In this document: positions 1 to 59,982 of the stretch, piece after piece | Layout: every line of letters begins with the position of its first letter | Position numbering within the stretch: position 1 is the first letter of the stretch | Source: Protaetiibacter sp. SSC-01 | Lineage (GTDB): Bacteria > Actinomycetota > Actinomycetes > Actinomycetales > Microbacteriaceae | Reading direction: 5' to 3' | NCBI RefSeq assembly: GCF_014483895.1 | Contig: NZ_CP059987.1 | Location: 2,790,001-2,854,000, forward strand | Length of the DNA: 64,000 nucleotides | Program-made: the position numbers and the translations under genes | The notes under the pieces: generated by a model | What the model saw: the letters and a program-made list of their open reading frames with translations, nothing else | Told to the model about the DNA's origin: nothing | Database searches by the model: none

Positions 1-253
1 GCGGGCGCTGCACGCGGAAGCTCAGCGAGTTGACCACGGCGTCGGCCTGCTCACGCAGAACGAGCGAGTGGTGGTGGAGCTCCTGGTAGCCGCGCAGGTA
101 CGCGACACCCGGCTGCTCCGCCACGACCTCCATCCCGAGGATGTCGCGGAAGAACCGCAGGGACGCCTGCAGGTCCTTGGTGCCGAGGTCGATCGCGCCC
201 GTCTTCGCGATGCGCGGCCCCTGGTCGTAACGGTCAGCGTGGATGGACATCAT
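1..253 (-). CDS. Extradiol ring-cleavage dioxygenase, VOC family (N-terminal part)
   Basis: The C-terminal part lies outside the window. The visible 84 residues begin MMSIHADRYDQGPRIAKTGA and continue with the pattern typical of the first vicinal-oxygen-chelate module of catechol 2,3-dioxygenase and 2,3-dihydroxybiphenyl dioxygenase (an AIDLGTKDL stretch, then LRFFRDILGMEVV and a YQELHHHSL stretch). Two adjacent ATG codons at 253 and 250 are possible starts. The gene is the last visible one of a leftward operon, 25 bp after the aldolase gene. Its inferred job is meta-cleavage of the catechol made by the monooxygenase encoded at 3012-4724. Because it is VOC-type, it is not an MhpB (LigB-type) enzyme, so the operon is not a plain copy of the E. 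coli mhp operon. Metal ligands of the C-terminal module cannot be checked. Confidence 0.8.
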   Translation of the reverse strand, partial: MMSIHADRYDQGPRIAKTGAIDLGTKDLQASLRFFRDILGMEVVAEQPGVAYLRGYQELHHHSLVLREQADAVVNSLSFRVQRP

Positions 254-58780: not shown

Positions 58781-58818
58781 AAAGACGGGTGCGGGCCCAC
58801 CCTCGAAGCCTCTCCTAG

Positions 58819-58863
58819 CGGGAAGATTCCCGTCGCTCCCTTCCAAAAACTCCCCAAGGGAGC
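58819..58863. promoter_or_regulatory. Two further inverted repeats upstream of the HTH-HATPase gene
   Basis: CGGGAAgaTTCCCG (58819-58832) is a perfect small palindrome. GCTCCCTT/AAGGGAGC arms (58835-58842 and 58856-58863) enclose a 13-nt loop and are followed by AATTTCTT, which resembles a terminator. With the tandem sites at 58889 they make this 215-bp gap unusually structured and less GC-rich than its surroundings. Confidence 0.5.
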
Positions 58864-58888: not shown

Positions 58889-58952
58889 AATCTCCTCATT
58901 CGGGTAGATTTTGAGGCCACCGCGTGTGAGAATCTCCCCGTTCGGAGAGATT
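58889..58952. promoter_or_regulatory. Tandem 22-bp operator-like repeats
   Basis: AATCTCCTCATTCGGGTAGA plus TT (58889-58910) and AATCTCCCCGTTCGGAGAGA plus TT (58931-58952) agree at 18 of 22 positions and are 42 bp apart, about four helical turns. Both contain AATCT/AGATT arms, so each is also a weak palindrome, and GAGG follows each. They end 13 bp before the ATG of the HTH-containing gene, which fits autoregulation. Confidence 0.65.
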
Positions 58953-58965
58953 CGAGGTCACACGA

Positions 58966-59982
58966 ATGGCGACGCGCGAGCCGGTACGCATCGGCGAACT
59001 GAGCGAACGCCTCGGAATCCCGATCAAGACCCTCCGGCGACTCGCGGACGCGGGGAGGATCCCCTCCGAACGAAGCCCGGGCGGCCATCGGATGTTCGAT
59101 CCGCATGCCGTCGCCTCCTCGCTCAGCGGTGCGCTTCCCCAACCGGAGATCGTGCCCGCGCGTACGCCCGACTGGCGTGGGTCGCGGAGTCTCGATGGCC
59201 TCGACGAGGCCTTGGTCTGGGGAGCGGCTGCCGAGGCGCTCCACCTCGACCGCTACGAGGAGGGCGTCCGGATCGCGACCTACGCCTTCACCGAGATGCT
59301 CAACAACGCGATCGACCACAGCGGCGGCACGACGTCCGAGGTCGCCGTGTGGTCGTCTCCTCAAGAGATCGCGTTCCGCGTCGCCGACGACGGGAGAGGC
59401 GCCTTCGCCCACCTTCGGGCCGGGCTCGCCCTGGAGCGCGACCTCGACGCAGCCGCGGAGCTCACGAAGGGCAAGCGCACCACCTGGAGCGAGAGGCACA
59501 CCGGCGAAGGCATCTTCTTCACCTCGAAGGCTGTCGGCGTTTTCCGCATCTCCGCAAACGGCTTCAGGCTCACCATCGACAACGAGCGGGGCGACGTCGC
59601 GCTGGGTATCTCGACCGTTCGGACGGGGACGATGGTCGAGGCGAGCATCCCGATCCCCCCTCCCAGGACGCTCCGTGCGGTGTTCGCCGAGTTCGCCGAC
59701 GACGATCGGGGATTCAGTCGGAGTCGCCCCACGGTCAAGCTCTTCGGGTCCGGTGTGACGTTCGTCTCCCGCTCCGAAGCACGACGACTCATGGAAGGCA
59801 TGGAACCCTTCGCCGACATCGACATCGATTTCGGCGGAGTCGAGGATGTGGGCCAGGGTTTCGTCGACGAGATCATGCGCGTCTGGCCGTCGCAGCACCC
59901 CGGCGTCGGATTGCACCCCATCAATATGAACGAGGCCGTGGAGTTCATGGTGCGACGGGCTGCGCGTAGGCTCGACGGGTGA
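58966..59982 (+). CDS. HTH-HATPase-DUF4325 fusion protein
   Basis: The 338-residue protein has three parts. Residues 6-55 form a MerR/excisionase-like HTH (VRIGELSERLGIPIKTLRRL, then GGHRMFD). Residues about 85-235 are a GHKL ATPase with N box TEMLNNAIDHSG (110-120), G1 DDGRG (141-145) and G2 HTGEGIFFTSKA (178-189). Residues about 256-335 match the STAS-like DUF4325 (LFGSGVTFVSRSEARRLMEG, then VGQGFVDEIMRVWP). This resembles an anti-sigma/kinase and STAS partner-switch joined to a DNA-binding head in one chain. Tandem sites precede it, and it overlaps the next gene by 4 bp. The role is unknown; a signal-gated repressor is inferred. Confidence 0.85.
   Translation: MATREPVRIGELSERLGIPIKTLRRLADAGRIPSERSPGGHRMFDPHAVASSLSGALPQPEIVPARTPDWRGSRSLDGLDEALVWGAAAEALHLDRYEEGVRIATYAFTEMLNNAIDHSGGTTSEVAVWSSPQEIAFRVADDGRGAFAHLRAGLALERDLDAAAELTKGKRTTWSERHTGEGIFFTSKAVGVFRISANGFRLTIDNERGDVALGISTVRTGTMVEASIPIPPPRTLRAVFAEFADDDRGFSRSRPTVKLFGSGVTFVSRSEARRLMEGMEPFADIDIDFGGVEDVGQGFVDEIMRVWPSQHPGVGLHPINMNEAVEFMVRRAARRLDG

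Follow-up and report, generated by a model that had tools for sequence, protein, structure and literature searches.

The gene described here lies in a window of 64,000 nucleotides from Protaetiibacter sp. SSC-01 (contig NZ_CP059987.1, positions 2,790,001 to 2,854,000 of the forward strand). It occupies window positions 58966-59982 on the plus strand, stop codon included, and its open reading frame encodes a protein of 338 amino acids (P0001) in which Pfam models outline an HTH-GHKL-DUF4325 arrangement. Two operator-like palindromes and a promoter-like pair of hexamers precede the start codon, and the start of an acyl-CoA ligase gene (GTG at 59979) overlaps the stop codon by 4 bases.

Domain composition of the protein

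The helix-turn-helix (HTH) head, MerR/BldC-like, spans aa 8-50 (58987-59115, plus strand); the Pfam MerR model matches aa 8-44 with 42.3 bits, passing its cut-off of 28.2, and the BldC and excisionase models stay under theirs. The GHKL (HATPase) domain follows at approximately aa 78-230 (59197-59655, plus strand) and contains an N box (aa 110-118), a G1 box (aa 141-145) and a conserved lid, KGKRTT...HTGEG (aa 168-182). The protein itself scores just under the Pfam cut-offs of HATPase_c_2 (24.6; cut-off 27.4) and HATPase_c (23.8; cut-off 26.4), and each of these models matches 79 of the 81 family sequences introduced below at E<=0.01. Seven residues are invariant in all 81: E110 and N114 of the N box, D141, G143 and G145 of G1, and G180 and G182 of G2. 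The STAS-like domain, at about aa 251-338 (59716-59979, plus strand), was delimited from Pfam, the structure model and Foldseek; DUF4325 (PF14213) matches aa 271-325 with 36.4 bits, which passes the curated cut-off of 23.

The AlphaFold2 model of the full protein has a mean pLDDT of 87.8 and a pTM of 0.65, the packing between domains being uncertain. It resembles GHKL structures, and the highest target TM among the best 50 matches (0.67) belongs to SpoIIAB (1til_E). When the C-terminal domain was modelled alone (pLDDT 88.6), Foldseek returned mostly STAS-containing proteins (SLC26, RsbS, SpoIIAA), with a best E not below 0.017. The sequence search of solved structures with the window protein gave nothing below E 0.03, and a family profile (A2) matched histidine kinases and winged-HTH regulators separately. 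One chain combines a MerR-type HTH, a GHKL ATPase and a STAS-like DUF4325, as the initial annotation had proposed from the letters alone; Pfam, the invariant residues and the model bear this out, including the intact N, G1 and G2 boxes and the two predicted folds. Also found at the head (aa 5-49, window 58978-59112) is a match to mad1, a 60-residue model belonging to the MADS defence system, with E 1.4e-9, which probably reflects just a common type of HTH.

Palindromes over a promoter-like pair

The first operator-like palindrome, AATCTCCTCATTCGGGTAGATT, lies at 58889-58910 and the second, AATCTCCCCGTTCGGAGAGATT, at 58931-58952 (no strand assigned to either). Each 22-bp copy has the form AATCT-N12-AGATT, and the two are 82% identical and 42 bp apart from start to start, which confirms the near-identical sites reported earlier before the ATG. 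When the window was shuffled 100 times, a pattern built from both 22-mers never matched. A third, degenerate copy, AGCCTCTCCTAGCGGGAAGATT, was identified at 58807-58828 (no strand assigned); it shares 64% identity with the reference copy, has 3 mismatches to AATCTNCCN6GGNAGATT and keeps 9 of 10 arm letters in a loose scan.

The promoter-like pair TAGATT-17-GAGAAT spans both main copies, and its hexamers overlap their facing arms. The -35-like TAGATT (58905-58910, plus strand) overlaps the right arm of the first palindrome, which has equivalents before homologues, and the -10-like GAGAAT (58928-58933, plus strand), 17 bases further on, overlaps the left arm of the second, whose remainder would cover the transcription start. 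GAGAAT is a weak match to the consensus, and a sigma-70 consensus scan found no sigma-70-like site at the window's TAGATT/GAGAAT; the related pair TAGATT-17-TANAAT is also present in L012, L013 and L025. Promoters were recognizable in 4 of the 18 genes with a MerR head, the window included; in these, the spacer is 17 bp and the palindromes, centered outside it, cover the -35 and -10 boxes from there, an arrangement that suits a repressor. Neither this overlap with a promoter-like pair nor the wide occurrence of the layout appeared in the initial annotation.

In L012, L013 and L025 the start codon lies inside the last palindrome, and the -10-like box, which ends at -7, leaves a gap of six bases before the ATG; given this gap and the palindrome over the ATG, the mRNAs of these genes are probably leaderless.

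Distribution of the family

GTDB contigs were searched for relatives, of which the best 80 of 176 were retained, and viral contigs supplied 8 loci; the GTDB relatives come from Actinobacteria, Omnitrophota, Patescibacteria groups and other phyla. From the 87 loci L012-L098 we dropped three without a full-length start (L014, L062, L083) and four more than 90% identical to another (L023, L032, L056, L095), and the remaining 80 plus the window make up the 81 sequences; L099 was excluded, L003 and L004 served in the upstream tests only, and L005 was used nowhere. Start codons were partly set by a length rule, so that L047, for example, probably begins earlier. DUF4325 is matched in all 81 sequences, each HATPase model in 79 and MerR in 16, and the winged-HTH models HTH_24, MarR_2 and HTH_11 match 32, 24 and 19 respectively, counted per model and without a union. 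The HTH, GHKL and DUF4325 layout was found in 80 non-redundant homologues from several phyla.

The gene itself is sporadic. Among 299 genomes searched from the family to which the window belongs, 4 have it at E<=1e-10, including the one the window comes from, and this search did not find it in the five other listed genomes of the genus; in the phylum of G593 (Omnitrophota), 14 of 117 genomes carry it at E<=1e-30, G593 counted. DUF4325 as such is broader, being present in 25 of the 296 genomes from the phylum that includes the window and in 3 of 14 control genomes. Seven of the eight viral-contig loci contain the GHKL-DUF4325 part and one (L099) the head only. The plasmid and phage collections gave nothing at E<=1e-5, and the best 50 matches among predicted viral structures included no whole-chain match, GHKL proteins ranking highest and HTH-only and DUF4325-only proteins lower. 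Three further observations concern individual members. With alignment A2, the AbiEi_4 antitoxin model matches 12 of the 81 sequences at E<=0.01. The homologue at L005:1459-2055 (minus strand, G062) covers query residues 152-332 only, in an open frame without head and N box, and is perhaps a decayed copy; that at G684:C6:2125-3152 is broken into two matches that overlap, one of them containing a TAG, and is perhaps decaying.

The upstream motif changes with the head

We compared 81 upstream regions of 215 bases: those of the window, L003, L004 and 78 of the 80 homologues (L055 and L097 have fewer than 120 bases before the start). Controls were the upstreams of other ORFs from the same loci, called with a simple ORF caller, and those for the MerR heads take in the ORFs of the 64-kb window. 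Eighteen regions belong to MerR heads; the other 63 heads were labelled winged HTH by exclusion, without a one-by-one check. The motifs were written after most of these upstreams had been inspected, so the test is not blind. The pair AAYCT-N5..15-AGRTT occurs in 14 of 18 MerR-head upstreams against 0 of 142 controls, and with other heads in 1 of 63 against 4 of 342. Conversely, GTTKACAA is present in 39 of the 63 other-head upstreams, 9 of 342 controls and none of the 18 MerR-head upstreams, although part of this excess may be promoter, given that the motif resembles a -35 box. The same 63 regions are enriched in TTGWMAACTT (20, against 3 of 342 controls) and in TTKACA-16..18-TANNNT (38, against 26 of 342), and GTTGACAACTT is a candidate operator of a winged-HTH member. 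The named motif is missing from 4 of the 18 MerR-head and 24 of the 63 other-head upstreams. This crossed comparison, in which the site changes as the head changes, is the strongest point of our sequence analysis; since the type of head varies between lineages and the motif varies along with it, the HTH head most likely reads its own promoter. The check on conservation of the repeats before homologues, proposed along with the initial annotation, was therefore favorable.

The 18 MerR-head upstreams hold 22 pairs, compared with 0.15 expected at random places in the same loci. Copies are spaced 41-45 bp apart in L012, L013, L015, L016, L019 and L022, as are the window's two main copies; the spacing is not uniform, with 32 and 40 bp in L025, 43 and 65 in L003, 77 and 53 in L021, and about 26 in L017 and L018. 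In a motif-free repeat test, 28 of 81 upstreams beat all 30 of their shuffles, compared with 13 of 147 controls; the window is unremarkable in it, 4 of 30 shuffles reaching its score. A correspondence between half-site letters and the recognition helix looked suggestive by eye and was set aside, no count having been made.

Sites elsewhere in the genomes

In the window's own genome, no place besides the two main copies fits AATCTNCCN6GGNAGATT at <=2 mismatches, and the others listed have three. Sites at <=1 mismatch lie solely before the gene in G123, G591 (L012) and G592 (L013), and the idea of a regulon was rejected for the four MerR-head genomes, which hold no further site at <=1 mismatch. 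Further places at two mismatches (four in G123, three in G591 and two in G592; one, none and one with a reversed-pattern control) were taken as background. For ten other-head genomes we used a longer pattern in exact form; it was present in nine, and 10 of its 11 occurrences are located between 5 and 119 bp ahead of the gene. It is important to note that this pattern was drawn from such sites and finds them by construction, so that its near absence elsewhere is what counts, and that sites can be missed because many of these genomes are draft assemblies. Sites so nearly confined to the gene itself indicate, as far as genome sequences can, a regulator that is mostly self-targeted. The eleventh place is in G602, where a cluster of TTTACAACTT-type sites lies away from the regulator gene (L111:1760-2140, G602:C27), some 420 bp ahead of an ORF of 196 aa and beside ORFs that resemble an efflux system by eye; it is a possible second target.

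Neighbouring genes

Our study identified no recurring neighbour. The largest cluster of neighbour genes (called with a simple ORF caller) reaches 6 of 80 non-redundant loci, its example being ABC-transporter ATPase-like by eye. A same-strand ORF lies within 60 bp upstream in 2 of 71 loci and downstream in 20 of 76. The downstream set comprised 75 of 77 genes (L091 and L097 were left out for length); its families have at most 3 of the 75 genes each, and the AMP-binding family has one, the window's own. PADLOC (2023), applied to these 75 immediate downstream genes, assigned 20 families of one gene each without recurrence, and no PIN family is among the best 25 of the 97 families in the downstream genes. 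The link with the acyl-CoA ligase is local, not general: the co-translation reported earlier agrees with the 4-base overlap in the window and does not extend to the family. The earlier remark that no known partner sigma factor lies beside the gene is in line with the lack of a recurring neighbour, and a more distant partner may exist.

A glutamine apparently at the usual acceptor position

Gln297 (59854-59856, plus strand) is present in 81 of 81 sequences. A profile of the C-terminal domain (A3) meets VapS (structure 9z7o) in register, weakly, as the second of four matches (E 0.52; a designed protein ranks first with 0.47), and in this weak alignment Ser66 of the VapS chain falls on Gln297. 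We take chain Ser66 to be VapS Ser48, assuming an 18-residue tag inferred from the chain length, and treat that serine as the phospho-serine of VapS. Ten further DUF4325 loci, some of them perhaps in genomes already counted, have GQ[GA]F in nine cases, and L107 gives no regex match. Ser270 is conserved throughout the 81 sequences, and 79 of them have Ser268. As the position is apparently Gln throughout, subject to the weak register, classical partner switching is unlikely at the usual site, and the usual phospho-switch has probably been lost. The partner-switching framing of the initial annotation keeps its two domains, GHKL and STAS-like, and apparently loses the usual acceptor.

The same genome encodes another protein with DUF4325 (405 aa; L110:4035-5252, G000:C1 near 1387009), which combines this domain with GHKL and has no HTH match. 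Its N-terminal stretch is STAS-like by eye, it has VSSSF at the acceptor position and VapS is its sole match (E 0.023); it may be a VapK-VapS-like fusion.

Discussion

The explanation that we favor, and consider probable, is a self-contained autorepressor gated by a nucleotide or a ligand and not by phosphorylation at the usual serine. The HTH head would bind the palindromes of its own promoter as dimers, adjacent to each other and on the same face of the double helix in keeping with the 42-bp spacing, and the bound dimers would hide the -35 and -10 boxes. The GHKL domain would bind ATP and pack with the STAS-like domain; a changed nucleotide, ligand or partner would alter the dimer, upon which the head would release the DNA and the gene would be expressed. 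With an invariant glutamine apparently at the acceptor position, such a switch could not use phosphorylation of the usual STAS serine, and our guess is that Gln297 turns the STAS-like domain into a pseudo-substrate that remains docked in the ATP site. We infer repression rather than activation, dimer binding and, from the invariant ATP-site residues, nucleotide gating; from the "self-contained nucleotide-gated repressor" of the initial annotation, the repressor fits the operator-like sites, and the gating is suggested by those residues.

Other readings of the locus start from the same observations. The protein could be CapK and CapS in one chain, its GHKL domain phosphorylating the STAS-like domain, in cis or in trans, at another residue such as Ser270 or Ser268 and so freeing the operator, perhaps on DNA damage. 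The invariant GHKL motifs and the conservation of these two serines agree with this, as do the three kinds of domain and the self-bound promoter shared with CapK/CapS as presented in the main text of PMC13373217; the apparent glutamine at the usual acceptor in 81 of 81 sequences, the different order given there for CapK (HTH-STAS-GHKL) and the lack of a recurring neighbour gene make it rather unlikely. A role as regulator of the acyl-CoA ligase operon, with fatty-acid control as its purpose and autoregulation just a part, would agree with the 4-base overlap between the ligase start and the regulator stop, through which repression would cover the ligase too; yet AMP-binding occurs in one of 75 downstream genes, the window's own, and a closely following same-strand ORF in 20 of 76 loci, and we regard such a role as improbable.

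The promoter evidence bears on two more proposals. Activation of its own promoter in the MerR manner would suit a head that passes the MerR cut-off, but the palindrome centers lie outside the 17-bp spacer in the four recognized promoters and, among the 81 sequences sharing this body, 65 lack a MerR match, which renders activation quite improbable. The repeats might also be RNA hairpins (a terminator or attenuator) or chance repeats and not protein sites, which would agree with their palindromic form, with a terminator-like stem close by (58850-58862) and with the motif-free test, where the window is unremarkable. Against this, the arm letters are kept and not the pairing alone, the motif changes with the type of head, and the palindrome runs across the start codon in L012, L013 and L025, so that we consider it extremely improbable.

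Around the autorepressor we tentatively place a wider proposal, which is possible but which we would not assert: a multi-phylum family in which kinase-like and substrate-like domains are permanently fused with a head, the substrate-like domain bearing an invariant pseudo-substrate Gln in place of the acceptor serine, the main target is the family member's own promoter, and a one-gene circuit can swap its head together with its operator. The sequence comparisons point to a switch that is widespread, has received little study and acts mainly on its own gene; they suggest a family of transcription regulators for which the open-licence literature searched offers no description. Since the operators can be read off the genome, the specificity, the gating and the signal are directly testable. 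If the regulator acts on DNA mainly at its own gene, these results also raise the question of why several phyla retain it as a single, sporadic gene. A second question is whether switching by a GHKL-STAS pair is possible when the usual serine is not phosphorylated.

Comparison with known systems

The anti-sigma kinases SpoIIAB and RsbW have a sigma factor and a SpoIIAA-type STAS antagonist as separate partners. The window protein shares with them the GHKL fold with N, G1 and G2 boxes and a STAS-type fold, but it is a single chain with a DNA-binding head, has no recurring neighbour and apparently lacks the acceptor Ser. Regulators of the MerR family have a coiled-coil dimerization helix and act on promoters whose long spacer encloses the dyad. 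The N-terminal MerR HTH is common to both, whereas in the window protein GHKL and STAS-like domains follow the head, and in the four promoters the spacer is 17 bp with the dyads outside. BldC, a MerR-like regulator against whose model the window head scores under the cut-off, is described in PMC5859096 as a protein of 68 aa that binds direct repeats head to tail, in contrast to a three-domain chain with palindromes.

For the single-chain HTH-GHKL-DUF4325 layout, no description was found in the open-licence literature searched, where two papers name DUF4325 in tables, another has a "STAS-like domain-containing protein" in its table, and a further one with this phrase deals with MlaFB. The terms DUF4325, single polypeptide, single-chain and fusion are absent from the main text of PMC13373217. 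VapS of the VapK-VapS-VapC system is the protein (9z7o) that aligns in register, weakly (E 0.52), with the C-domain profile; according to that text, it is an antitoxin without HTH head and keeps Ser48, a residue like that of CapS, whereas the window protein has an HTH head and Gln297.

The nearest described system, judging from the main text of that report, published in June 2026 (PMC13373217), is CapK/CapS, which controls adjacent immune operons. There, CapK (an HTH-STAS-GHKL kinase), upon activation by single-stranded DNA, phosphorylates Ser54 of CapS (a STAS-wHTH repressor), and the repressor dimer falls apart. CapK/CapS are two adjacent genes, capK then capS, with a conserved acceptor Ser, whereas the window has one chain in the order HTH-GHKL-STAS-like, and its family apparently has Gln at that position (weak register), no recurring neighbour and sites nearly confined to its own gene. 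Both have HTH, GHKL and STAS domains and palindromic sites over their own promoter, and the negative autoregulation shown for CapS is what we propose for the window protein.
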